Shown one piece after another: positions 6,127-28,940 of a stretch of 64,000 bases of DNA. The stretch spans positions 1 through 64,000 of the forward strand of contig JARRPX010000017.1 in the NCBI GenBank assembly GCA_037382465.1, read 5' to 3'. The notes under the pieces were generated by a model, which did no database searches, was not told the DNA's origin, and was given only the letters and a program-made list of their open reading frames with translations. Source of the DNA: Anaerolineales bacterium. GTDB taxonomy: Bacteria; Chloroflexota; Anaerolineae; Anaerolineales; E44-bin32. Made by a program: the position numbers and the translations under genes. How positions within the stretch are numbered: position 1 is the stretch's first letter; every line of letters begins with the position of its first letter.

Positions 6127-7149
6127 TCACGTGGCGATTTCGAGCGTTCGCAGACGTTCCGCAGCGGTTTCGGCCGTCAAATCTCGCTGTGCTTCGGCCA
6201 GCATTTCGAAGCCCACCAAGAATTTCCTCACCGTCGCCGAGCGCAAAAGTGGCGGGTAATAATGAGCGTGTAATTGCCAATGATCGTTGGGTTGCTCATC
6301 GAACGGTGCGCCATGCCAGCCCATTGAATATGGAAAGGAGACATTGAAAAGCGAATCGTAGCGCAGTAACAACGATTTCATGACCTGCGCAAGCAGATTC
6401 CGTTCATCATGACTCAAATCCGGAAGCCTTAAAACATGACGTTTGGGCACAACCATCGTTTCGAAGGGCCAAATCGCCCAATACGGAACCAATGCTACCC
6501 AGGCCTCGTTTTCCACAACGACACGCTCACGCGTTTCAAGCTCTTCCTGCAGGCAATCCAGAAGCAGCACACGCCCGCTGCCTTCGCCGTACACTCTCTG
6601 ATTGGCGTCTTCCTTTAGCGGCTCGTTGGGCAGCGCATCCAATGCCCAGATTTGACCGTGAGGATGTGGATTGGACGCGCCCATCATCTCTCCCTTATTC
6701 TCGAAGACTTGCACCCAACGGTACGTCTGGCCAAGATCAGCGGACTGCTCCGCCCAGCAGTCGATCACGCTCCGGATCGTTTGCACGTCCATTTCGGCCA
6801 GAGTCAAATCGTGTCGCGGGGAGAAACAAACGACCCGGCAGGTCCCGCGTACGCCGGCGGAACGCAGCAGTCCGCCATCTTCAACGGACGGATCAGCACC
6901 ATCCGGCAACAAGGCCTGAAAGTCGTTGGTAAAGACGTACGTATGTTCGTACGCAGGATTGACCGCGCCACTCACTCTTTGATTTCCCGGACAAAGATAG
7001 CAATCCGGATCGTACGCAGGGCGATCTTCCCGTATTCGATCCTCGACCTTTCCCAGCCACGGCCGTTGGGCACGATGAGGGGAAACGAGCACCCATTCTC
7101 CAGTCAAAGCATTGTAACGTCTGTGCGGCAGCGTATAAATCGATTTCAT
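6127..7149 (-). CDS. galT: Galactose-1-phosphate uridylyltransferase
   Basis: A 340-residue enzyme of the Leloir pathway that exchanges UMP between UDP-glucose and galactose-1-phosphate. The hallmark NPHPHGQIW motif carries the catalytic HPH triad, and the N-terminal [19 protein letters not shown] matches bacterial GalT proteins. I place the start at ATG 7147-7149 because it leaves the few residues expected before PHRRYN; an upstream GTG at 7194 would add 15 residues. It is divergent from the LacI-type regulator, with a sigma70-like promoter at 7250-7279 and an operator at 7205-7222 between promoter and gene. galK is in the same island on the other strand; galE is not in the window. Confidence 0.95.
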
Positions 7150-15054: not shown

Positions 15055-18000
15055 TTGTCATCAAAGCAAAGGGCGCAGGCAGACCCCCTCGTTCGGGCTC
15101 AAAACGACCCGCCCGCTCCCATCGGAGCGGTCCTGGTCGTTGGCGGTGGCATCGCCGGCATGCAGGCCAGCCTCGATCTGGCCGACCAGGGTTACAAGGT
15201 CCACCTGGCAGAGACGAAGTCCGCCATTGGCGGACACATGGCACAACTCGACAAGACGTTTCCTACCAACGACTGTGCCATGTGCACCATCAGTCCGAAA
15301 CTCGTCGACACCGGCCGCCACCTCAACATCGATCTGCACGTCGATACTGACGTGCTCAAGGTCGATGGCCAGCCCGGCGATTTCACGGTCACCCTGCGTC
15401 ACAAGCCACGCTACATCGATCCCTTGAAGTGTGTCGGCTGCGGCGATTGCGCCGAAGTCTGCCCGGTCGTGCTGCCCGACCCCTTCAACGAAGGCCTCGC
15501 GCCTCGCCGCGCGGCCCACAAACTCTACCCCCAAGGCGTTCCCAACGCATATGCCATCGCCAAACTGGGTATTTCTCCCTGCCGTGACGCCTGCCCCGCC
15601 GGGCAGCGCGCCCAGGGTTACATCGCCCTGATTCGCGAAGGTCGTTACGATGACGCCCTGCGCGTGATCAAGGAGGACAATCCGTTTCCGGGGATTTGTG
15701 GCCGTATCTGCAACCATCGCTGCGAGGCTGCCTGCAACCGCGGCCTGGTCGACGAACCGATCAACATTCGCGCCCTGAAACGCTTCGTCACCGACAAAGT
15801 CTACGAGAAACCGCGCCAGGCGCGCGAAGCGGCCGAAATTACCCGCAAATCCAGAGTCGCCGTGATCGGCGCCGGTCCCTGCGGCCTGACCGCCGCACAG
15901 GACCTGGCCTTGTTGGGCTATCCGGTCACGGTTTTCGAAGCGCTGCCCGTCGCCGGCGGCATGCTGCGCGTCGGCGTTCCCGAGTACCGCCTGCCCACGG
16001 AGATCATCGAGCGCGAGATCGCCGATATTCTCGATCTCGGAATCGACCTGAAGCTCGACACCAGGGTCGAGGATCTGGATGACTTGTTCGACCAGGGCTT
16101 TGAGGCGGTTCTCATCGCGGTCGGCGCCCACGAGGGGATCCGTCTGCCGATCCCGGGCGCCGACCTCGAGGGCGTATTGATCAATACCCGCTTCCTGCGC
16201 GACGTACGCCTGGACAACCCGCCGGCAATCGGGGATCGTGTTCTCGTGCTCGGGGGCGGCAACGTGGCCTTCGACTGCGCACGTACCGCCGTACGCATGG
16301 GCGCCGAAGTGCACATGGCCTGTCTCGAGCCGCGCGATAATTTACCCGGCCATGCCTGGGAAGCCGATGCCGCCGAGGAGGAAGGCGTCGTCATTCACGC
16401 CGACCGCACGTTCCTACGCGTCGTCGACGACGGCAGCGGGCACGCGGCCGGAGTCGAATGCGAGCGGGTGGCCCACTTCGATTTCGACCACGAGGGCCGC
16501 TTGTCCGTCGAGACCGTACCCGATTCCAAACACGTGATCGAAGCGGATACCATCATATTCTCCGTCGGTCAGCGTGCCGGTCTGGCCTTCATCCCCGATG
16601 ACGCCGGAGTGGGCGTCACCACCAAACGCACGATTGCCATCAACCCCAACACCATGGCCGCAACCCGGCCGGGCGTTTTCGCCGCCGGCGACAGCGTCTC
16701 CGGCACGGCGTTTGTGATCGAAGCCGTGGCCTCCGGCCATCAAGCGGCCGAAAGCATTCACCGTTATCTGCGCGGCGAGGAACTCGAGCCGGAACCCAAG
16801 CCTGAACTGCCGGTGGTGAAATTCACTCGCGCCGAACTTCAGGCGCGTATCAACTCCGGCGAGATCCAGCCCACGGGCCGGATCCCCATGCCCGAGCTTC
16901 CCGTCGAACAGCGGACGAGCTGCTTCGCCGAGGTTGAGGGGGGTTACAGCGACGAATCGGCACAAGCCGAAGCGGCTCGCTGCCTGGCTTGCGCACAGTG
17001 CTCCGAATGCCTCTCCTGCCAGTACGTCTGTGGGCGTGATGCCATCAACCACAACGATGTCGCGAAGATCGAGCAGCTTCGAGTGGGCGCCGTGATCCTG
17101 GCGCCCGGCTACGAAATCTACAACGCCGAGTTATCCGCCGAGTACGGATTGGGGCGCTACCCCAACGTGATCACCGCCCTGCAGCTCGAGCGCCTGCTCT
17201 CCGCCTCCGGTCCCACGCAAGGCCACGTCAATCGTCCCTCCGATGGAACACCCGCGAAAAAAGTCGCCTTCCTGCAGTGCGTCGGCTCGCGCGACAAGAG
17301 TCACGATTACTGCTCCTCCGTGTGCTGCATGTACGCCGCCAAAGAAGCGATCATGATCAAGGAGCACGATTCCGAGGCCGAGGTGCACGTGTTCATGATG
17401 GACATGCGCGCCTTCAGCAAGGGCTACGAAAGCTACTACCGCCGTGCCAAACAGCAGTACAACATCGAATACACACGCTGCCGGATTTCTGAATTCAAGG
17501 AAGACGCGGACAGTCAGGACATCATACTGCGATACGTGCAGCAGCCGTCGACGAACGGAAACGGTAAATCTGCCGCCGGTTCGCCGACTCCCGGGTCGCT
17601 GCTCACCGAAGAGCACTTCGATCTGGTCGTCCTTTCCGTCGGCATGGAGATTTCCGAAAGCGTAAAGGCTTTGGGCAGGGACCTCGGCATCCAGCTGGAC
17701 GAGTACGGATTCTGCCACACGGCTTCGTTCAATCCACTCGAGACCACCCGGCCGGGAATCTACGCCGTCGGACCATTCCGCGAACCGAAGGACATCCCCG
17801 AATCGGTGGTCGACGCCAGCGGCGCTGCTGCAATGGCGGCCGGCCTGCTCGCCCCGGCACGCCACTCACTCACCACTTCCCCCGAATATCCTCCCGAGCG
17901 CGACGTGACGGGCGAAGAACCGCGCGTGGGCGTTTTCGTCTGCCACTGCGGTTCGAACATCGGCGGCTACCTCGACGTGCCCAGCGTGGCCGAGTACGCC

Positions 18001-19677
18001 AAAACGCTGCCCGGCGTGGTCCACGCCGAAGACAATCTGTATACCTGCTCGCAGGACACCGTGGCTCACATCACCGAGACGGTGAAGGAGGAGCATCTCA
18101 ACCGCGTCGTGGTGGCTTCCTGCACACCACACACCCATGCGCCGCTCTTTCAAGACTGCATCCGCGCCGGCGGCCTCAATCCAGCATTGTTCGACATGGC
18201 CAACATCCGCAACCAGTGCTCCTGGGTGCATTCCCACGACAGGAAAGCCGCCACGCACAAAGCGCGCGACCTGGTGCGCATGGCCGTAGGCCGTGTCGCG
18301 ACATTGGAACCGATCCACACCAGCAAAGTCGAGATCGAACACAGCGCCCTGGTGGTCGGCGGCGGAGTAGCCGGCATGACCGCCGCCCTCTCGCTGGCAG
18401 AGAACGGTTTCGACGTGCACCTGGTAGAGCGTGAAGGGCAACTGGGCGGGAATCTAAATAAAGTGCATTACCTGACCTCCGGCGACGAACCGCGTGAACT
18501 GCTGGAAAACCTGACCGCCGACGTCGAAGCTGAGCCGAGGATCGAATGTCACCTCAACCACGAAGTCGTCAGCACCAGCGGTTTCATGGGAAAATTCACC
18601 ACCACACTACGCAGTGGCGCAGGTGAGAAGCAGATCGCACACGGCGTGACCATCATCGCCACCGGCGCGCAGGAGTACCGCGGGCCGGAGTACGGATACG
18701 AAAACAATCCCCGCGTGGTTACCGGTTTGGATATGGAAGCGCTGCTCGCCAATGCACACGGTTCGCAAATCGATCTCGAGGGCCGTGCCGCCGAAGCCTG
18801 GAAAGCGATCGGCGAACAGCTCCCCGATGAAGTGACCATGATCCTGTGCGTCGGACCTGCGGAGCGTTTCTGCGCCCGTATGTGCTGCACCACGGCGCTG
18901 AAACAAGCCATGACGCTCAAACGTCTCAAGCCCGAAGCCCGCATTACCGTGCTCTATAAAGACATCCGCACTTACGGTTTCAAGGAGTCGCTCTACACCG
19001 GGGCGCGTGAAGCCGGCGTGCGCTTCGTACGCTACGATGGCGAACACAAGCCCGTGGTTCGCAGCGATGGCCGGGATTTGGAAATCGACATCCACGATCA
19101 CGTCCTGGGAGAGAAACTGACCTTGCACCCGGATCTGCTCATGTTGAGCATGCCAGCCGTACCGGCCGAAGGATCCCGCGAGCTGGCCTCGAAATTCAAG
19201 GTTTCGCTCGATCAGGACGGATTCTTCCTGGAAGCGCACATCAAACTGCGCCCTGTGGATTTCGCCTCCGATGGCTACTTCATGGCCGGCATGGCGCACT
19301 ACCCCAAATTCGTCGACGAGAGCATCGTGCAGGCGCAGGCGGCTGCTTCGCGCGCGGCGCGCATCCTCTCACGCACTACACTGACCGCCGGCGGCGTCGT
19401 CGCCCAGGTCGACCCGACGAAATGCGTCGGCTGTCTGACGTGCGTGCGCGTTTGCCCCTACGGGGTGCCGCAGGTTATCCAGGACAGAACCGGCGTAGGC
19501 GAGATCAGCGGCGCAGCGTACATCGAACCTACCGTGTGTCACGGCTGTGGTTCGTGCGCTTCCGAGTGCCCCGCCAAAGCCATCAGCGTCGTCAGCCAGC
19601 GCGACGACCAGATCACGATCAAATTGGATGCCTTGTTGTCGGAGAAATTTGGAGACGAGGTCAAGGAGAAGGTGTAA
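15055..19677 (+). CDS. hdrA: HdrA-GltD-HdrA giant fusion flavoprotein (copy 1)
   Basis: A 1540-residue fusion. It opens with an HdrA flavin unit (GGG from about 29; NDCAMC; CVGCGDCAEVC from C126), interrupted after about residue 170 by a complete GltD/NfnB-type module. That module has a Cys cluster region from C176 (CRDACPAGQ, then CGRICNHRCEAACN), an FAD Rossmann motif IGAGPCGLTAA near 271, an NAD(P)-binding motif GGGNVAFDCA near 399 and AAGDSVSGTAF near 544. HdrA resumes with the six-Cys stretch CLACAQCSECLSC from C643 and CCMYAAKEA near 756. A second HdrA unit starts near 1100, and two [4Fe-4S] motifs end the protein (C1457, C1495). The start is TTG supported by GGGAGGGG. The GltD module would let NAD(P)H enter an HdrA bifurcation scaffold; this function is inferred. 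It is followed by a Sec-MvhD. Confidence 0.88.
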   Translation: MSSKQRAQADPLVRAQNDPPAPIGAVLVVGGGIAGMQASLDLADQGYKVHLAETKSAIGGHMAQLDKTFPTNDCAMCTISPKLVDTGRHLNIDLHVDTDVLKVDGQPGDFTVTLRHKPRYIDPLKCVGCGDCAEVCPVVLPDPFNEGLAPRRAAHKLYPQGVPNAYAIAKLGISPCRDACPAGQRAQGYIALIREGRYDDALRVIKEDNPFPGICGRICNHRCEAACNRGLVDEPINIRALKRFVTDKVYEKPRQAREAAEITRKSRVAVIGAGPCGLTAAQDLALLGYPVTVFEALPVAGGMLRVGVPEYRLPTEIIEREIADILDLGIDLKLDTRVEDLDDLFDQGFEAVLIAVGAHEGIRLPIPGADLEGVLINTRFLRDVRLDNPPAIGDRVLVLGGGNVAFDCARTAVRMGAEVHMACLEPRDNLPGHAWEADAAEEEGVVIHADRTFLRVVDDGSGHAAGVECERVAHFDFDHEGRLSVETVPDSKHVIEADTIIFSVGQRAGLAFIPDDAGVGVTTKRTIAINPNTMAATRPGVFAAGDSVSGTAFVIEAVASGHQAAESIHRYLRGEELEPEPKPELPVVKFTRAELQARINSGEIQPTGRIPMPELPVEQRTSCFAEVEGGYSDESAQAEAARCLACAQCSECLSCQYVCGRDAINHNDVAKIEQLRVGAVILAPGYEIYNAELSAEYGLGRYPNVITALQLERLLSASGPTQGHVNRPSDGTPAKKVAFLQCVGSRDKSHDYCSSVCCMYAAKEAIMIKEHDSEAEVHVFMMDMRAFSKGYESYYRRAKQQYNIEYTRCRISEFKEDADSQDIILRYVQQPSTNGNGKSAAGSPTPGSLLTEEHFDLVVLSVGMEISESVKALGRDLGIQLDEYGFCHTASFNPLETTRPGIYAVGPFREPKDIPESVVDASGAAAMAAGLLAPARHSLTTSPEYPPERDVTGEEPRVGVFVCHCGSNIGGYLDVPSVAEYAKTLPGVVHAEDNLYTCSQDTVAHITETVKEEHLNRVVVASCTPHTHAPLFQDCIRAGGLNPALFDMANIRNQCSWVHSHDRKAATHKARDLVRMAVGRVATLEPIHTSKVEIEHSALVVGGGVAGMTAALSLAENGFDVHLVEREGQLGGNLNKVHYLTSGDEPRELLENLTADVEAEPRIECHLNHEVVSTSGFMGKFTTTLRSGAGEKQIAHGVTIIATGAQEYRGPEYGYENNPRVVTGLDMEALLANAHGSQIDLEGRAAEAWKAIGEQLPDEVTMILCVGPAERFCARMCCTTALKQAMTLKRLKPEARITVLYKDIRTYGFKESLYTGAREAGVRFVRYDGEHKPVVRSDGRDLEIDIHDHVLGEKLTLHPDLLMLSMPAVPAEGSRELASKFKVSLDQDGFFLEAHIKLRPVDFASDGYFMAGMAHYPKFVDESIVQAQAAASRAARILSRTTLTAGGVVAQVDPTKCVGCLTCVRVCPYGVPQVIQDRTGVGEISGAAYIEPTVCHGCGSCASECPAKAISVVSQRDDQITIKLDALLSEKFGDEVKEKV

Positions 19678-19786
19678 ATCATTTACGATTTCCATCGGCT
19701 CCGCTAAGGATGATGTTCTGTCGCTTGATTAAATAGCGATTTTAGAAAAAGATTAACGTAGCAGGAAACGGGATCAGGAAGGGAAC

Positions 19787-20263
19787 ATGGCCGAATTCGA
19801 ACCACAAGTCGTCGCATTTTGCTGCAGTCACTGCGCCTACAACGCCGCCGACCTCGCCGGCAGCCTGCGAATCCAGTACCCCTCGTCGATCAAGATCATC
19901 GAGGTCCAATGCACGGGGCGCGTCGACATCGAACACATGCTGCACGCTTTCGAAGACGGTGCCGACGGCGTGATGGTGGCAGGTTGACTGCCCGGCGATT
20001 GTCATTACCTGGAAGGTAATACGAACGCAAGACGACGGGTGGAATTTGCCCGACAGTTGTTGGAAGAGATCGGCCTAGAAAGCCAACGGCTGCAGATGAT
20101 CAACATTTCGGCGGCCATGGCCGGTGAATTTACCTTTGCTGCGGCCGAAATCACGGCCGAGATTCAACGATTGGGCCCCAATCCGCTGCGCGCTGACGGC
20201 GCAAATCGATCCGATGTCAAGGCGCCCGTCGTCGAGATAGCGAAAGAGAATGGCGAAGCTTGA
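19787..20263 (+). CDS. mvhD: MvhD-family subunit, selenocysteine form (UGA at 19985-19987), copy 1
   Basis: The frame from ATG 19787 stops formally at TGA 19985-19987, but homology continues in the same frame to the stop at 20261-20263. Read with Sec at residue 67, the 158-residue product contains GVMVAG-Sec-LPGDCHY, matching the family motif CHPGDCHY; the Cys paralog at 5566 has Cys in the aligned place. Other family Cys are in CCSHCAY and QCTGR. Sec at this position is established for the VhuD subunits of methanogens. A compact stem-loop follows the UGA (separate entry). The gene starts 109 bases after the HdrA fusion and its last 14 bases overlap the histidine kinase start, so kinase translation may depend on UGA readthrough. 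Standard gene callers would annotate only a 66-residue fragment. Confidence 0.9.
19985..20020 (+). promoter_or_regulatory. Bacterial SECIS-like element in mvhD copy 1
   Basis: Sixteen bases after the UGA, ATTACC (20004-20009) and GGTAAT (20015-20020) pair, and the T and A inside may add a seventh pair, leaving a small GGA loop. Placement and a G-bearing apical loop agree with bacterial SECIS elements recognised by SelB. The same stem is present, nearly base for base, in the paralog at 26979. Confidence 0.75.
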
Positions 20264-21434
20264 TTCCCTCAAGCGTTTCGATGTCTTCGCAGAGCTTCCC
20301 GAGGAAGCTCTAAAGGAAATCGCGCGCCTGGCCAAAAATGAAACGCATCCTGAAGGAACGGTTCTTTTCAAGGAAGGCGCCGCAGCGGATAAACTCTACC
20401 TGCTGCTCGAGGGCAAGATCTCGCTCGAGATGCTCGTGCAGCTCGGCAGCACGGGAACGCCGCGCCGTGCAACGTTCAGCGTCGCCGGCCCCGGAAACGC
20501 CGTCGGTTGGTCCAGTCTGGTCCCGCCGTACATCTACACCTCTTCCGGCGTTTGCATCGAAGACGTCAAATTACTGGCGCTTTCCGGCGATGACTTGCGC
20601 GCCTACATGAACGAGCACCCGGATATCGGCCACGCCATTTGTCAGCGCACGGCTTCTATCATTCGCGGGCGTATGACCAACGCCACGTCGATGCTCACCT
20701 ATTTCCTCTCCATCGTCTCACACGAACTGAAACGTCCGCTCGCTGCGGTCGAAAATTACCTGCAGATCCTCTCCGGCGGCTACGCCGGCGAACTGAGCCC
20801 CAAGCAAACCCGGCTGATCGAGCGCAGCACGCTGCGCATCGCCGATCTGCGCAACTTGATCAGCGACATCCTCGACTTCGCCCGCATGCAGCCCGAGCAG
20901 ATTCGCGCAGACTTCGAGGAGCTCGATCCGGCCGAACTCGGCGCCGAAGCGATCGAGGAAGTCCGCCTGGCGGCGTCGCAGAAGAACGTGCAGCTCAAGG
21001 TCATCGGGCCGACCGAATTTCGTTCCATCGTCGCCGCCCGGCGCCGGCTGCGGCAGGTCATCGCCAATCTGCTGGCCAACGCCGTCAAATTCTCACCCGA
21101 AGGCAGCACCGTGACCCTCAGCGCACACGACAAACCTGAGGCCCTGGTGATCCAGGTGATGGACGAGGGCATCGGCATCCCCGAGGACGAACAGGAACAC
21201 ATATTCGACGATTTCTTCCGCGCCAGCAACGTCGGCGATTTCCAAGGCGCCGGCCTGGGGCTCTCCATCGCACACAAGATCATCGAGGCACACGAAGGCA
21301 GTATCGAGGTCGAAAGCCCCTACCAAGAAGGAAAATCCGGCACCAAATTCACCATCACGATCCCTCGGACGCTTCCTGTTCCCGGAATGGGCAGGTCGGC
21401 CGAACCCGCAGTCACCCAGGAGAGAGGGGGGTAG
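20250..21434 (+). CDS. Sensor histidine kinase with N-terminal cyclic-nucleotide-binding-like domain
   Basis: A 394-residue soluble kinase. Residues about 5-125 form a cNMP-binding-type beta-barrel (FAELPEEALKEIARLAK at its start, LYLLLEGKISLEM inside). HisKA follows with phosphoacceptor H158 in SHELKRPL, and HATPase_c has N-box ANLLANAVKFS, G1 DEGIGIP, an F-box FDDFFRAS and G2 GAGLGLSIAHK. No membrane segment, so it senses something in the cytosol; the cNMP fold can also bind haem, Fe-S clusters or small molecules in the related FNR/CooA group. The first 14 bases lie inside the end of the Sec-MvhD gene, and the response regulator starts three bases after its stop. Confidence 0.9.
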   Translation: MAKLDSLKRFDVFAELPEEALKEIARLAKNETHPEGTVLFKEGAAADKLYLLLEGKISLEMLVQLGSTGTPRRATFSVAGPGNAVGWSSLVPPYIYTSSGVCIEDVKLLALSGDDLRAYMNEHPDIGHAICQRTASIIRGRMTNATSMLTYFLSIVSHELKRPLAAVENYLQILSGGYAGELSPKQTRLIERSTLRIADLRNLISDILDFARMQPEQIRADFEELDPAELGAEAIEEVRLAASQKNVQLKVIGPTEFRSIVAARRRLRQVIANLLANAVKFSPEGSTVTLSAHDKPEALVIQVMDEGIGIPEDEQEHIFDDFFRASNVGDFQGAGLGLSIAHKIIEAHEGSIEVESPYQEGKSGTKFTITIPRTLPVPGMGRSAEPAVTQERGG

Positions 21435-21436
21435 AC

Positions 21437-22201
21437 ATGCGCGATAAACCGTATGTATTGATCGTGGACGACGACCCGGACATCGTGGAAGGGATTATTG
21501 CCGTTCTGGAGACGCGCGATTACCGCCTGGCCAGCGCCGGTGACGGCATCGCCTGCATGGAACGCATCAAAGAGGAGCCGCCCGATTTATTGATCCTGGA
21601 CATGATGATGCCGCGCATGGATGGTTTCGCCGTCATCCGCGAACTGCGCGGCGATCCGAAGTACGCCGGCTTGCCCGTCATCATCCTCACCACGGTCATC
21701 GAAGACGCGGCCTACCGCCGCTACGAGCTGGAGACGGGCCTGGCGATGGACGTGCAGGCCTACATCGAGAAACCGGCACCGCCGGATGAGCTGCTGCGTT
21801 ACGTCACCGCCGCGGTCGAGCTGCCCTACATCATCGTCGCCGACGACGATCCGGACATTGTTGCCGGGATAACCACGGTCCTCGAATCGAAGCCCTATCA
21901 GGTCAGTTCGGCGTCGGACGGCCAGACCTGCGTGGAGTTGGTCCGCAAGCGAAAACCCGATCTGCTCATCCTGGATCTGCTCATGCCGCGCATGGACGGT
22001 TTCGCCGTCATTCGCGAGCTGCGTAGCGAACCGCAGCTCGCCGACCTGCCGATCATCATTCTCACCACCGTCGTCGAAGACGCCAGCCGCCGGCGCTACG
22101 AACTCGAAACCGGCCAGGACATGGCCGTCACGCTGTACATGCAGAAACCCGTTCCGCCCAAGATGCTGCTCAAGCAAGTTGGAGAGGCACTGCAGGCATG
22201 A
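21437..22201 (+). CDS. Response regulator with two receiver domains and no output domain
   Basis: A 254-residue protein made of two CheY-like receivers. Each has the acidic pocket (DDDPD), a phosphoacceptor Asp (D55 in LILDMMMP, D180 in LILDLLMP), the ILTT switch Thr and a Lys-Pro (EKP, QKP). No DNA-binding or enzymatic domain follows, so signalling must go through protein contact, perhaps with the Hdr proteins themselves or a separate output regulator. The two halves are similar enough to be an internal duplication. The stop overlaps the ATG of the next HdrA fusion (ATGA at 22198-22201), tying its synthesis to the metabolic genes. Confidence 0.92.
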   Translation: MRDKPYVLIVDDDPDIVEGIIAVLETRDYRLASAGDGIACMERIKEEPPDLLILDMMMPRMDGFAVIRELRGDPKYAGLPVIILTTVIEDAAYRRYELETGLAMDVQAYIEKPAPPDELLRYVTAAVELPYIIVADDDPDIVAGITTVLESKPYQVSSASDGQTCVELVRKRKPDLLILDLLMPRMDGFAVIRELRSEPQLADLPIIILTTVVEDASRRRYELETGQDMAVTLYMQKPVPPKMLLKQVGEALQA

Positions 22202-25200
22202 AGCCCGACAAGGTTACCGGTGCGGTGATGGTCGTCGGCGGCGGGGTCGCCGGCATGCAGGCCAGCCTCGATCTGGCCGAGCAGGGCTTCCGCGTCTACC
22301 TGGTGGAAAGTAAATCCGCCATCGGTGGACACATGGCCAAGCTGGACAAGACCTTCCCCACCAACGACTGCGCCATGTGCATCATCAGCCCCAGGCTGGT
22401 CGAGACCGGGCGTCATCTCAACATCGATTTGATGGTCGACAGCGAAGTCGAAAAGATCGCAGGGCAGGCTGGCGATTTCACGGTAACCGTGCGCCGCAAG
22501 CCGCGCTACATCGACATCGACAAATGCGTCGGCTGCGGCGATTGTGCCGAAGTCTGCCCCGTCGTGCTCACGGATGCGTTCAACGAAGGCCTGGCGCCGC
22601 GCAAAGCGGCCTACAAACTCTATCCGCAGGCGGTGCCCAACGCCTACGCCATCGACAAGCTGGGCATCGCGCCCTGCCGCAGCGCCTGCCCCGCCGATCA
22701 GCGCGCCGAGGGCTACATCGCCCTCATCGGAGAGGGACGCTATCGCGAAGCCTACCGCGTGATCAAAGAGGACAATCCCTTCCCCAGCGTGTGTGGACGC
22801 ACCTGCCACCACCCCTGCGAGGGACACTGCGCCCGCGCGCTTGTGGACGAACCCGTGAGCATCATGGCGCTGAAACGTTTCGTGATGGATTACGCCCTGG
22901 CTTACGGTCGTGAGAAAGTCGAGCCCGTACCGCGCACGCGCCCCGAGTGGGTCGCCGTGGTCGGCGCCGGCCCGGCCGGACTTACTGCCGCCCACGATTT
23001 GGTGAAAATGGGCTACGGCGTGACCGTTTACGAGGCGCTGCCCGTCGCCGGCGGGATGATGCGCGTGGGCATCCCCGCCCACCGACTGCCCAAAGGCGCC
23101 TTGCAGGACGACATCGACGACATCCTCGCCCTGGGCGTGGTGCTGAAGACCGACTCGCCAATTTCCGATCCGACGAAATTGTTGAAAGAAGGCTACGACG
23201 CCGTATGTCTGGCGACGGGGATTTCCAGCCGCGATCACTCGCTGGGTGTGGAGGGCGAAGACGCCGAGGGCGTACTTTCCGCGGCGACTTTCTTACGCAA
23301 AGTCAATCTGGGAGAACCCGTCACCGTCGGCGAGCGCGTGGCCGTGATCGGCGGCGGCGTGACGGCGCTCGACGCAGCCGCCGTCGCCCGCCGGTTGGGC
23401 GCCGAAGAAGTCATCCTGGCCTACGACCGGCCGCGCGGCGAACTGCCCGCCTACCAGTGGGAAATGGACGCCGTCGAAGCCGAAGGCATCCGCCAGTTCG
23501 AGCACACCACGCTGAAGCGCATCCTTACCCAGGACGGCAAGGTCACCGGCGTCGAACTGGCCCGCACCGGCCGCGGCATGACCCAGGACGAGCAAGGCCG
23601 GCGGCGGCCCAAGATCGAAGCCGGCAGCGAATTCAGCCTCGAAGTCGACACCGTGATCGGCACCGTCGGCCAGCAGTCGGATTTGAATTATCTCCACCCG
23701 GTCTTCGACGATTTGAGCGCCGACAAAGAAACCCTGGCGTGCGAGAACGCACCCGGCCTGTTCGTCGTCGGCGGGCGCAAGACCGGCGCCAGCTTCATCG
23801 TCGAAGCCATCGCCCTGGGACACCGGGTGGCGAAATCGATTCACCATTATTTACAGGGCACGCTCGACGAATTGGAGAAACCCACGCCGCCGGTGGTCAA
23901 GGTCACCCGTGAGGACATCGAACGCCGCGTCAAGCGAGGGGAAATCGAACTGCTGCCGCGCAGCGAACCCAAACTGCTTCCCATGGAGGAGCGCGTCACC
24001 AGTTTTCGCGAGGTCGTGCTGGGACTGACCGAACGCCAGGCTCGCGCCGAAGCCAAGCGCTGCCTGCAGTGCGGGAACTGCTCCGAATGCCTGGCCTGCG
24101 TCTACGCTTGCGGTGTGGACGCCATCGACCACGAGATGGTCGAATCCTATGAAGAGATCAACGTCGGCGCCGTCATTCTGGCTCCCGGCTACCAGGCATA
24201 TCAGGCCGAGCTCTCCGCAGAATACGGTTTGGGCCGCTACCCCAACGTGATCACGGCGCTGCAGCTCGAACGCCTGCTCTCCGCTTCCGGACCCACCACG
24301 GGACACGTGGTGCGCCCTTCGGACGGACGTCCGGCGAAGAAAATCGCCTTCCTGCAGTGCGTCGGTTCGCGCGACCAGAATCACGATTACTGCTCTGCCG
24401 TGTGCTGCATGTACGCCACAAAAGAAGCCATCCTGGTGCGCGACCACGATCCTGAGGCCGAGGTGGACGTCTTGATGATGGACGTGCGTGCCTTCAGCAA
24501 GGGTTACGATGCCTACTACCGGCGCGCCCGGGAACAGTACGGCATCCGCTACACCCGCTGCCGTGCGTCCGAAATCAAGGAAGTCCCCGAATCTCAGAAC
24601 ATCTCGATCCGCTACGCCAAGGAACAAGGCATCGGGACGGGAATTGAGAACGACTCCAAGCTGCCCGCGACGCACATGGCGGAAGCGGAGTACGACCTGG
24701 TCGTGTTGTCGGTGGGCATGGAGATCTCGCAATCCGTCAAGGATCTTGGCCAGCGCCTGGGAATCGAACTCGACGACTACGGTTTCTGCCGCACGGCGTT
24801 CTTCAATCCGGTGGAGACATCCCGGCCGGGGATTTACGCAGCAGGACCGTTCCGCGAACCGAAGGACATCCCCGAATCGGTGGTCGACGCCAGCGGCGCG
24901 GCGGGACGAACGGCGGCGCTGCTCACCACCGCCCGCGGACAGTTGACGCGCGAACCCAGCTATCCGCCTGAAAAGGCGATCGCGGACGAGCCAGCCCGCG
25001 TTGGAGTCTTCGTCTGCCACTGCGGCACGAACATCGCCGGGTACATGGACATCGAAGCCGTGACCGGCTACGCAGCGGAGCTGCCCCACGTAGTCCACGC
25101 CGACCATCTGCTGTACACCTGCTCGCAGGACAGCACGGCGCAGATTCAGGCTTGTATCGCAGAGCACGATCTAAACCGCGTCGTCGTGGCTTCCTGCACG

Positions 25201-26766
25201 CCGCGCACCCACGGCCCGCTCTTCCGCGACGTGATCCGCCAGGCGGGATTGAACGGGTACCTGTTTGCGATGGCCAACATCCGCAACCATTGTTCGTGGG
25301 TCCATTCCCATGCGCCCGAGATAGCCACAGAAAAGGCGCAGGATTTGATCCGCATGGCCGTCGCCCGCGTGGCGGCGCTCGAGCCGCTGCACACGCAGCC
25401 GGTTCCCGTTTGCCAGCAAGCGCTGGTCATCGGCGGCGGTGCGGCGGGCATGAACGCCGCACTCACCCTGGCCGAACAGGGTTTTCCCGTCCACCTCGTC
25501 GAAAAGGAAGCGGCCCTGGGCGGCAATCTGCGCAACGTATTTTTCAACCACGATCCCGGAGATTCGGCTGCCGCACACGATCCCCAAAAATACCTGCGGG
25601 CGTTGATCCAACAAGTCGAAGCACACCCTGCGATCACCACGTACCTTTCGAGACGGATGCAGCATACCTCAGGTTTCATGGGTGATTTCACCACGACGCT
25701 GAAGGGCGAAGATGGCAGCAAGGTGGTAATCAAGCACGGCGCCACGATCGTCGCCACGGGCGGCCGGGAGTATCGCGGCGAGGAATACGGCTACACGGAA
25801 AGCGCGCGCGTGGTCAGCGGATTGCAGTTTGAAGCCCTGCTGGCCAAATGCAGCCGCAAACGGGTCAAGCTCGACGATAAGACGAAAGCGACCTGGAAGC
25901 TGCTCGATGAAGCCCCGCCGGACGAGGTGCTGATGATCCAATGCGTCGGTCCGGCGGAGGAGACCTGCGCCCGCACCTGCTGCACCACAGCGTTGAAGCA
26001 AGCGCTGAAGTTGAAGGCCTTGAATCCTGAAGCGCGCCTCGTCATGCTGCACCGCGACATGCGCACGTACGGATTCAAGGAACGCCTCTACAAGCAGGCG
26101 CTCGACAGCGGCGTGATCTTCGTGCGCTACGACCCGGCTCACAAACCGCAAGTGCAGGTGGCAGCGGACGGTGCTTTGCAGGTGAACGTACGGGATCCCG
26201 TGCTCGGTGCGCCCTTGAACTTCGAGCCCGATCTGCTGGTGCTTTCCACGCCGCTCGTCCCTGCGGAGGACAGCAAGGCGCTGGCTACGAAATTGAAGGT
26301 GCCCGTCGATCTGGACGGTTGGTTCCTGGAGGCGCACGTCAAGCTGCGGCCGGTGGATTTCTCCAGCGAGGGCGTGTTCCTGGCCGGTGCGGCGCACTAT
26401 CCCAAGCTGCTCGACGAGACCATCGTGCAGGCCCAGGCCGCCGCGGCCCGCGCGGCGACGGTATTGTCGCGTCAGACGTTGAATGCGGGCGGCTCCGTCG
26501 CCCGCGTCGATCCCGAAGCCTGCGTCGGCTGTCTGACCTGCGTGCGCATCTGCCCCTACGGCGTACCGCAGATGCAAATTGATTTCACCGGCGCCGGCGG
26601 CATCGTGGGCGCGGCGTACATCGAACCCGCCGTGTGCCAGGGCTGCGGCACGTGCGTCGCCGAATGCCCCGCCTACGCCATCGAACTGCTGCATTATCGC
26701 CACGAGCAGTTGGAAGACGAGGTGGGCGCCCTGTTCGAGGCGCAGATTCAAGCGCAGGAAGGGTGA
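22198..26766 (+). CDS. hdrA: HdrA-GltD-HdrA giant fusion flavoprotein (copy 2)
   Basis: A 1522-residue paralog of the 15055 protein with the same order: HdrA unit (GGGVAGMQ near 15-22, CVGCGDC from C110), GltD/NfnB module (CRSACPADQ from about C160, VVGAGPAGLTAA near 253-264, IGGGVTALDAA in the 380s, VVGGRKTGASFIVEA before the end), six-Cys CLQCGNCSECLAC from C622, second HdrA unit (GGGAAGMNAA near 1079) and two terminal [4Fe-4S] motifs (C1442, C1480). The NAD(P)-loop region differs from copy 1, and the module ends in GGRKTG rather than AGDSVSG, so the two copies may prefer different nucleotides or partners. It starts within the response-regulator stop and is eight bases before the second Sec-MvhD. 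Confidence 0.88.
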   Translation: MKPDKVTGAVMVVGGGVAGMQASLDLAEQGFRVYLVESKSAIGGHMAKLDKTFPTNDCAMCIISPRLVETGRHLNIDLMVDSEVEKIAGQAGDFTVTVRRKPRYIDIDKCVGCGDCAEVCPVVLTDAFNEGLAPRKAAYKLYPQAVPNAYAIDKLGIAPCRSACPADQRAEGYIALIGEGRYREAYRVIKEDNPFPSVCGRTCHHPCEGHCARALVDEPVSIMALKRFVMDYALAYGREKVEPVPRTRPEWVAVVGAGPAGLTAAHDLVKMGYGVTVYEALPVAGGMMRVGIPAHRLPKGALQDDIDDILALGVVLKTDSPISDPTKLLKEGYDAVCLATGISSRDHSLGVEGEDAEGVLSAATFLRKVNLGEPVTVGERVAVIGGGVTALDAAAVARRLGAEEVILAYDRPRGELPAYQWEMDAVEAEGIRQFEHTTLKRILTQDGKVTGVELARTGRGMTQDEQGRRRPKIEAGSEFSLEVDTVIGTVGQQSDLNYLHPVFDDLSADKETLACENAPGLFVVGGRKTGASFIVEAIALGHRVAKSIHHYLQGTLDELEKPTPPVVKVTREDIERRVKRGEIELLPRSEPKLLPMEERVTSFREVVLGLTERQARAEAKRCLQCGNCSECLACVYACGVDAIDHEMVESYEEINVGAVILAPGYQAYQAELSAEYGLGRYPNVITALQLERLLSASGPTTGHVVRPSDGRPAKKIAFLQCVGSRDQNHDYCSAVCCMYATKEAILVRDHDPEAEVDVLMMDVRAFSKGYDAYYRRAREQYGIRYTRCRASEIKEVPESQNISIRYAKEQGIGTGIENDSKLPATHMAEAEYDLVVLSVGMEISQSVKDLGQRLGIELDDYGFCRTAFFNPVETSRPGIYAAGPFREPKDIPESVVDASGAAGRTAALLTTARGQLTREPSYPPEKAIADEPARVGVFVCHCGTNIAGYMDIEAVTGYAAELPHVVHADHLLYTCSQDSTAQIQACIAEHDLNRVVVASCTPRTHGPLFRDVIRQAGLNGYLFAMANIRNHCSWVHSHAPEIATEKAQDLIRMAVARVAALEPLHTQPVPVCQQALVIGGGAAGMNAALTLAEQGFPVHLVEKEAALGGNLRNVFFNHDPGDSAAAHDPQKYLRALIQQVEAHPAITTYLSRRMQHTSGFMGDFTTTLKGEDGSKVVIKHGATIVATGGREYRGEEYGYTESARVVSGLQFEALLAKCSRKRVKLDDKTKATWKLLDEAPPDEVLMIQCVGPAEETCARTCCTTALKQALKLKALNPEARLVMLHRDMRTYGFKERLYKQALDSGVIFVRYDPAHKPQVQVAADGALQVNVRDPVLGAPLNFEPDLLVLSTPLVPAEDSKALATKLKVPVDLDGWFLEAHVKLRPVDFSSEGVFLAGAAHYPKLLDETIVQAQAAAARAATVLSRQTLNAGGSVARVDPEACVGCLTCVRICPYGVPQMQIDFTGAGGIVGAAYIEPAVCQGCGTCVAECPAYAIELLHYRHEQLEDEVGALFEAQIQAQEG

Positions 26767-26774
26767 AGGCATAG

Positions 26775-27191
26775 ATGAGCGAGAACGGGAACGATATGCA
26801 GATCGTCGCCTTTTGCTGCCATCATTGCGCCTACGCCGCAGCAGATCTGGCCGGCGTCCTGCGCATCCAGTATCCGGCGCAGGCCAAGATCGTCGAGATC
26901 CCCTGCTCCGGGCGTTTGGACGCGCTCGAGGTGCTGCATACATTCGAACGCGGCGCCGACGGCGTGATGGTCGCCGGTTGACTGCCCGGCGACTGCCATT
27001 ACCTGGAAGGTAATGCCAACGCCAAAATTTTGGAGTCGATCGGTTTGGAATCCGAGCGAGTGGAAATGTTCAATCTCTCATCGGCGATGGCCCAACAATT
27101 CGCCGAAACGGCGAAAACCATGGCGCAGCAGATTCAAAATTTGGGCCCGAATCCACTGCGGCTCGCCGCTGAGGAAAATAACAAAGTATAG
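26775..27191 (+). CDS. mvhD: MvhD-family subunit, selenocysteine form (UGA at 26979-26981), copy 2
   Basis: As in copy 1, homology runs through an in-frame TGA (26979-26981) to a TAG at 27189-27191, giving 138 residues with Sec69 in GVMVAG-Sec-LPGDCHY. Family Cys are in CCHHCAY and PCSGR. After LEGN this copy reads ANAKILESIGLESERVEM, eight residues shorter than copy 1 and than the Cys paralog, an in-frame loss of 24 bases in a helix after the Sec motif. The gene lies eight bases after the HdrA fusion and 54 bases before metV, so it is the candidate link between the fusion and the MetVF reductase. Read as a stop, the UGA would leave a useless fragment lacking the second half of the cluster motif. 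Confidence 0.9.
26979..27015 (+). promoter_or_regulatory. Bacterial SECIS-like element in mvhD copy 2
   Basis: ATTACC (26998-27003) pairs with GGTAAT (27009-27014), closed by an extra C26997-G27015 pair, beginning 15 bases after the UGA. The UGA-to-stem bases equal those of copy 1 except for two synonymous third-position changes. Confidence 0.75.
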
Positions 27192-27245: not shown

Positions 27246-27932
27246 ATGATCATCGCGGAACAAAAACCATTGGAGGAGATCAAGGCCTTGATCGCCGACG
27301 CCAAAGACGTGCTGGTCGTCGGCTGCGGCACCTGTGTGACGGTGTGCTTTGCCGGCGGCGAGAAGGAAGCCGGCATCCTGGCCAGCAGCCTGCGCATGTC
27401 GACCAAACTCGACGGTGGGCCCAAGGCCGTGGAGCACGTCACCGTGCAGCGCCAGTGCGAATGGGAGTACATCGACCCCATTGGCGAACGCGTCGATCAG
27501 GTGGACGTGGTGGTTTCGATTGGATGCGGCATCGGCGTGCAGGCACTCGCCGAACGCTTCCCCAAAGCCGTCGTCGTCCCCGGATTGAACACTTCGTTTC
27601 TGGGGCTGCCCACCGAACAGGGCGTGTGGGAGGAACGCTGCGCCGCCTGCGGCGAATGCATCCTCGGTCTGACGGGCGGTATCTGCCCCATCGCCCGCTG
27701 CGCCAAACAACTGCTCAACGGACCCTGCGGAGGCTCGCAGAACGGCGTCTGCGAGATCAACCCGGATACGCCCTGCGCCTGGCAGTTGATCTACGACAAA
27801 CTAAAGGATCAGGATCGCCTGCACCTGCTGACAGAAGTACAGGGTCCCAAGAACTGGTCCACCAGCCGCGACGGCGGTCCGCGCAGAATTACCCGCCAGG
27901 ATCTGCGTCTCGCAGCCGAAGAGTCTGAGTAG
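27246..27932 (+). CDS. metV: MetV, methylenetetrahydrofolate reductase partner subunit
   Basis: A 228-residue protein of the MetV (methylene-THF reductase C-terminal-like) family, which pairs with MetF in acetogens. Conserved cysteines are visible in GCGTCVTVC near residues 28-36, QCEWE, CAACGECIL and GPCGGSQNGVCE, positions that bind zinc and Fe-S in characterised complexes. The start has GGGAGAG upstream. It sits between the second Sec-MvhD and metF in the same orientation. In Moorella, metVF is encoded with hdrCBA and mvhD, which supports the same functional grouping here. Confidence 0.92.
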   Translation: MIIAEQKPLEEIKALIADAKDVLVVGCGTCVTVCFAGGEKEAGILASSLRMSTKLDGGPKAVEHVTVQRQCEWEYIDPIGERVDQVDVVVSIGCGIGVQALAERFPKAVVVPGLNTSFLGLPTEQGVWEERCAACGECILGLTGGICPIARCAKQLLNGPCGGSQNGVCEINPDTPCAWQLIYDKLKDQDRLHLLTEVQGPKNWSTSRDGGPRRITRQDLRLAAEESE

Positions 27933-27950
27933 GCGAGAAGGAGTGAAGCC

Positions 27951-28940
27951 ATGACAAAAACATCGAGCAACGGTTACAAATCCGGCTCTCGCCTGGAACG
28001 CCTGCTGCGCGCCGGTGAATTCGTCGTCACCGGCGAGTTGGGCCCTCCGCAGGGCGCCGACGGCGGCGTCATCCGCGAGAAAGCCGCCCTGTTGAAGGGC
28101 GTGGTCGATGCCACCAACATCACCGACAACCAAACCGCCATCGTACGCATGTCATCGATCGGCGCCGGCACCATCGTGGTCCAGGAAGGCCTGGAACCGA
28201 TCATCCAGATGACCTGCCGCGACCGCAATCGCCTGGCGATCCAATCCGACCTGCTGGGCGCCTACGCCCTGGGAATGCGCAACGTGCTCTGCCTGACCGG
28301 CGATCACCAATCCTTCGGCAATCACCCCACGGCCAAGAACGTCCACGATCTGGATTCCGTGCAGCTGATCCAGATGGTGGTGAAGATGCGCGACGAGGGC
28401 AAATTCGAATGCGGCGACGAGATGAAAACTATCGAGCCGCGCTTCTTCGTCGGAGCGGCGGCCAATCCCTTCGGCGACCCCTTCGAATACCGCCCCTACC
28501 GCCTGGCGAAGAAAGTCGCCGCCGGTGTGGATTTCATCCAGACGCAGTTGATCTACAACATCGAGCGCTTCGCCGAATACATGCAGAAAGTGCGCGAACT
28601 TGGCTTGCACGAGAAGGCGTACATCCTGGCCGGCCTGGGTCCGCTGAAATCCCCCGGCATGGCGCGCTACATGCGCGATCAGGTCCCGGGCCTGGACGTA
28701 CCCGACATCTACGTCGACCGCATGACCGAAGCTGCGAAGGGCATCGACAAAGCGGACAAGAAAGCCCGCACCCAGGCCTGGCGCGAGGAGGGCATGAAGA
28801 TCACCATCGAGCAGATCCAGCAGATGCGCGAGATCGAAGGCGTTGCCGGCGTGCACGTGATGGCCATCGAATGGGAAGAAGCGGTCAAGCCGATCGTCGA
28901 GGGCGCAGGCCTGCTGCCGCGTCCGGAACCGGCGAAGTAG
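27951..28940 (+). CDS. metF: 5,10-methylenetetrahydrofolate reductase
   Basis: A 329-residue TIM-barrel flavoprotein that reduces methylene-THF to methyl-THF, the last step of the methyl branch of the Wood-Ljungdahl pathway. Family motifs include GELGPPQGAD near the N-terminus, ATNITDNQTA, NVLCLTGDHQ, the barrel segment GVDFIQTQLIYN and a C-terminal GVHVMAIEWE. AAGGAG precedes the ATG. It lies 18 bases after metV and 10 before the HdrC-HdrB fusion. NADH may not be the direct donor in such MetFV-Hdr sets; the neighbouring Hdr/MvhD genes suggest an enzyme complex. Confidence 0.95.
   Translation: MTKTSSNGYKSGSRLERLLRAGEFVVTGELGPPQGADGGVIREKAALLKGVVDATNITDNQTAIVRMSSIGAGTIVVQEGLEPIIQMTCRDRNRLAIQSDLLGAYALGMRNVLCLTGDHQSFGNHPTAKNVHDLDSVQLIQMVVKMRDEGKFECGDEMKTIEPRFFVGAAANPFGDPFEYRPYRLAKKVAAGVDFIQTQLIYNIERFAEYMQKVRELGLHEKAYILAGLGPLKSPGMARYMRDQVPGLDVPDIYVDRMTEAAKGIDKADKKARTQAWREEGMKITIEQIQQMREIEGVAGVHVMAIEWEEAVKPIVEGAGLLPRPEPAK

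Follow-up and report, generated by a model that had tools for sequence, protein, structure and literature searches.

The MvhD/VhuD/FlpD protein is listed among the known prokaryotic selenoproteins (PMC13188914). An hdrABC-mvhD-metVF arrangement is described in Anaerolineae (DscP3 and relatives), in which a putative two-component system (phoBR) flanks metF_1 (PMC5736913). Incorporation of selenocysteine (Sec) at UGA depends on selenium supply. In E. coli, recoding reaches 30-40% and requires sufficient selenium (PMC4513850). Even for a Sec-using archaeon that has been studied well, the way in which this supply is sensed is an open question (PMC11097638). In Methanococcus, electron-transfer genes with both Sec and Cys isoforms respond to selenium in their expression, and HrsM, a LysR-type transcriptional repressor, takes part in the selenium-dependent isoform switching (PMC11097638). 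A separate body of work concerns termination-reinitiation coupling between adjacent genes. Such coupling is typical for spacings of -8 to +6, and in reporter experiments it disappears once about 20-40 nt separate the upstream stop from the start that follows. Long phase-1 overlaps (-11, -14, -17 and so on) typically arise without coupling (PMC10666635).

The locus analysed here lies in a 64,000-nt stretch of an Anaerolineales bacterium (GCA_037382465.1, contig JARRPX010000017.1, positions 1-64,000, forward strand), referred to below as the window; all features described in it are on the plus strand. Its MvhD protein shares the PF02662 domain of MvhD/VhuD/FlpD, with Sec replacing a conserved Cys, but differs by an unconserved C-terminal tail that enters a histidine kinase gene. 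HdrA, MvhD, and MetVF-like genes are common to the window and to the Anaerolineae cluster as presented in PMC5736913. In the window, however, an HdrA-MvhD unit lies on either side of the kinase, which overlaps the Sec-mvhD gene; no description of such an overlap was found in the kinase and regulator passages of that paper. As in known coupled pairs, the two genes are co-directional and overlapping, and in most family members the second has a weak ribosome site. Here, however, the family's overlap of 14-20 nt exceeds the -4/-1/-8 class that couples efficiently, and a Sec UGA lies within the first gene. Where Methanococcus uses a transcriptional repressor, the window may offer no more than a translational influence on a single kinase. 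No precedent for Sec readthrough gating a downstream gene or kinase through overlap coupling was found in the open-licence literature searched; the report that comes closest is the one of a two-component system beside the Anaerolineae cluster (PMC5736913).

Organization of the operon

The cluster forms a single tight, co-directional gene run. It begins with an HdrA-like flavoprotein gene (15055-19677), followed by the Sec-MvhD/FlpD gene (19787-20263), whose frame runs from ATG 19787 to the TGA stop at 20261-20263 by direct reading. This gene has 158 codons, with Sec at codon 67 (UGA 19985-19987) and an unconserved tail past the LGPNPL motif. The histidine kinase gene (20250-21434; cNMP_binding-HisKA-HATPase_c in Pfam) starts within the last 14 bases of the mvhD frame, as the preliminary description had noted and direct reading bears out, giving a phase-1 overlap at 20250-20263. 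Because ATG 20250 is the sole ATG, GTG, or TTG among codons 1-60 of the kinase frame, the start is secure. The response regulator gene (21437-22201) encodes two REC domains, and the Pfam scan returned no output domain; a partner protein could possibly supply the output. A second HdrA-like flavoprotein gene (22198-26766; Pfam) overlaps the regulator by 4 nt and precedes a second MvhD/FlpD gene (26775-27191). This copy also carries Sec (UGA 26979) and an identical hairpin, and is separated by a 54-nt gap from putative MetV-like and MetF-like genes (27246-28940), assigned by position and by comparison with the Anaerolineae hdr-mvhD-metVF cluster (PMC5736913).

Both HdrA proteins exceed 1500 aa and contain an inserted Fer4_20/Pyr_redox_2 segment resembling GltD/NfnB, which suggests a built-in pyridine-nucleotide site in each.

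This layout has a bearing on how selenium could act on the downstream genes. A consensus scan of positions 19600-21500 found no promoter-like site from which the kinase could be transcribed on its own. Together with the tight co-directional arrangement and the generality of Rho-mediated polarity in bacteria (PMC12548453), this would be compatible with transcriptional polarity. Termination at the UGA would leave the rest of mvhD untranslated, and Rho, if present, would lower all downstream expression whether or not the genes overlap. The outcome would be similar to that of translational coupling, reached by another route (PMC12548453). Polarity nevertheless leaves the conserved overlap and the open mvhD tail, both described below, unexplained, and we regard it as an unlikely account of the locus.

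Selenocysteine decoding and a putative SECIS element

Several lines of evidence converge on the UGA at 19985. When it is read through, PF02662 spans the whole MvhD protein (156.6 bits) with one TGA inside, and HMMER aligns the solved MvhD structures (5odc, 7bkb, and 9sfi) across it. The UGA falls at a position occupied by Cys in homologs (GU..GDCH versus GC..GDCH). The genome contains the required machinery, namely tRNA-Sec (75 bits), selB, selD, and selA, the last on the same contig as the window. The selD gene (G000 C18:20860-21789) itself contains an in-frame TGA, and selenophosphate synthetase is for this reason probably a selenoprotein here as well.

A hairpin of 7 bp with a GGA loop (AUUACCU-GGA-AGGUAAU, 20004-20020) lies immediately 3' of the UGA, its loop about 24 nt past that codon. 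Since an Rfam scan of the window at the gathering cut-off yielded no SECIS and no further RNA family, frozen codons and covariation served as tests of the hairpin. The codons that form it (CAT, TAC, GGT, and AAT) are invariant in all 37 distinct Sec copies and variable among the 19 Cys copies. Its closing pair covaries between genomes, occurring as U-A, G-C, or A-U, and a U-G wobble or mismatch is present at this pair in some other Sec copies. The hairpin is thus conserved beyond coding need and constitutes a putative bacterial SECIS element. On this comparative evidence, UGA 19985 is a selenocysteine codon, beyond chance, and the Sec reading adopted in the preliminary description holds.

Conservation of the overlap and of the open mvhD tail

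Kinase orthologs were gathered at the levels of family, order, class, and phylum. Among same-family genomes with a readable junction, Sec-MvhD overlaps the kinase ATG in ten out of ten, by 17 nt in eight of them and by 14 nt and 20 nt in one each. The ten overlapping kinases form one clade with a support of 100/100. Across these genomes, the overlap is lineage-fixed in the window's family of uncultured Anaerolineales, beyond chance.

The segment between LGPNPL and the kinase start measures 58-70 nt in the ten genomes. Amino-acid identity between genomes falls to 17% in this tail versus 83% in the MvhD core, and all three codon positions have diverged about equally. Its length modulo 3 is nonetheless constant, always in one phase, and the MvhD frame is free of stops in all ten genomes, whereas the two alternative frames have 8 and 9. 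The chance of such a stop-free frame is about 0.0004, or 0.0025 once two near-duplicates are removed. A tail that stays free of stops without being conserved implies that something keeps the MvhD frame open up to the kinase start.

This pattern has to be weighed against the simplest view of the junction, in which the overlap is an evolutionary leftover. According to this view, mvhD extended into the kinase gene in phase 1 after losing its stop codon, and the overlap persists because phase-1 overlaps are hard to shorten. The kinase would then start independently at a weak, Shine-Dalgarno-poor site, and selenium would matter little. The same route has been given for long phase-1 overlaps, typically without coupling (PMC10666635). 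Overlaps of 8-14 nt behind Cys-mvhD genes, the moderate Shine-Dalgarno sequences of some family kinases, and ordinary opening energies at the kinase start also fit an independent start. Against it stands the tail itself. Being saturated with changes, a free tail should have acquired shortening stops, yet none occurs in the ten genomes, where the mvhD stop always remains 14-20 nt from the kinase start. The open, unconserved tail therefore argues against a pure leftover, although coupling is not thereby proven. We consider the leftover explanation possible but rather doubtful.

Long MvhD tails also occur without overlap in three genomes outside the family (L031, L092, and L096), which weakens the idea that a long tail is exclusive to overlapping genes.

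Ribosome sites and dependence of the kinase on readthrough

The kinase and its response regulator differ in how they appear to recruit ribosomes. Among the ten genomes, the kinase starts have a median Shine-Dalgarno energy of -3.0 kcal/mol, the value also found in the window and equal to background (-2.9 for random window ATGs); three of the ten have a moderate Shine-Dalgarno of -6.9 to -7.6. Response regulators reach a median of -7.55 kcal/mol, and that of the window has a strong site of -12.4 kcal/mol (paired p 0.016 for kinase versus response regulator). Masking of the kinase start by mRNA structure was considered and rejected, as the opening energies resemble those of shuffled sequences. 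With its weak ribosome site, the kinase is a candidate for coupling. The response regulator is not, since it has a strong Shine-Dalgarno of its own, and its distance from the kinase varies between -4 and +69 nt in relatives. The suggestion in the preliminary description that the regulator would be coupled together with the kinase is consequently not upheld.

The reading that we favor is a compact operon for electron bifurcation (HdrA, Sec-MvhD, kinase, response regulator, HdrA, MvhD, and MetVF-like genes), in which the kinase would be translated mostly by ribosomes that finish mvhD and are coupled across the 14-20 nt overlap. Since mvhD would require SECIS-directed readthrough of the UGA, only Sec-inserting ribosomes would reach the kinase start. 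Under scarce selenium, ribosomes would halt 263 nt upstream and kinase translation would decrease, while the response regulator would keep its own start. Such gating would be a passive consequence of placing the kinase behind a selenoprotein gene and would involve no dedicated sensor. This is, in our judgment, the best reading of the locus, held with confidence that is evenly balanced.

Its individual steps differ in strength. A stop at the UGA lies beyond the reach of reinitiation as measured in reporters (PMC10666635), hence ribosomes halted there should not feed the kinase, in agreement with what had been proposed from the first inspection. The conserved overlap, the mostly weak kinase Shine-Dalgarno, and the open tail together make it plausible, at about even chances, that the kinase depends on readthrough of the Sec codon; we infer that coupling operates and would make the kinase selenium-dependent. 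The main doubt concerns spacing. The overlap of -14 here, and of -14 to -20 in the family, falls outside the -8 to +6 coupling window and within the phase-1 class deemed typically uncoupled (PMC10666635). The earlier proposal that selenium supply sets the kinase level thus survives as a plausible reading of the junction, weakened by an overlap length that is usually not associated with coupling.

Overlap and selenocysteine in other lineages

The preliminary description went further and interpreted the junction as a selenium-sensing device built from gene overlap. In the strongest form that such a reading could take, the overlap would have been selected as an obligatory element, with the mvhD UGA acting as a selenium gauge and readthrough setting both the kinase level and the kinase:regulator ratio. 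Such a translational sensor would need no ligand-binding protein, and it would adjust the electron-transfer enzymes that depend on Sec or Cys. Within the family, the distribution is compatible with this proposal, as every kinase-bearing member has both Sec and the overlap. The regulator has its own Shine-Dalgarno and the kinase mostly does not, so that their ratio would shift with selenium. Cys-type MvhD genes, which are also found in genomes with Sec-MvhD, represent possible targets, and selenium sensing is unsettled in Methanococcus (PMC11097638).

Comparison beyond the kinase clade, however, dissociates these features. Outside the family, kinases next to Sec-MvhD are separated from it by gaps of +7, +10, +16, or +176 nt or overlap it by 4 nt, and in some cases a REC gene lies between the two. 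The kinase also follows Cys-MvhD in two loci (L154 and L155); its linkage to MvhD thus needs neither Sec nor overlap. Conversely, Sec-MvhD occurs in the same family without an adjacent kinase, running into metV (L138-L140), and its overlaps with this non-regulatory gene measure -4 and -1. Cys-MvhD genes of the same family overlap a hydrogenase small-subunit-like gene by 14 nt (L124 and L135) or 8 nt (L133), which indicates that overlaps of this kind do not need selenium. The expectation that Sec genes overlap their neighbors more often than Cys genes was rejected outside the kinase clade, where the frequencies are equivalent (5/26 versus 4/16, p 0.71; simple ORF calls read by eye), so that Sec does not predict overlap there. 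The lack of an output domain in the regulator also speaks against a dedicated switch, unless a partner protein supplies the output. The interpretation as a sensing device is therefore not sustained, and we judge both an evolved switch and a UGA gauge of this kind to be improbable.

Passive gating of the kinase retains some broader relevance. A kinase translated through a Sec codon would, if true, offer a simple route to selenium sensing. Even if passive, a selenium shortage may alter signaling proteins besides selenoenzymes, and the window's family illustrates that a lineage can fix an overlap located downstream of a Sec codon.

Two of the loci compared may also record changes in the genes themselves. 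The Cys-MvhD gene of L154 (6179-6595) carries TGT at 6356 together with a SECIS-like hairpin that is still perfect, and this combination makes a recent Sec-to-Cys conversion likely. In the window, the second MvhD gene (26775-27191) has Sec, whereas the corresponding downstream position encodes Cys in seven same-family genomes (L067-L073), which suggests that the gene was recently altered, or underwent gene conversion, in this genome. Gene order varies as well. Other families (L075-L081 and L152-L154) show the order MvhD, single REC, kinase, compared with MvhD, kinase, double REC in the window's family, a contrast indicating that the regulator moved and doubled.
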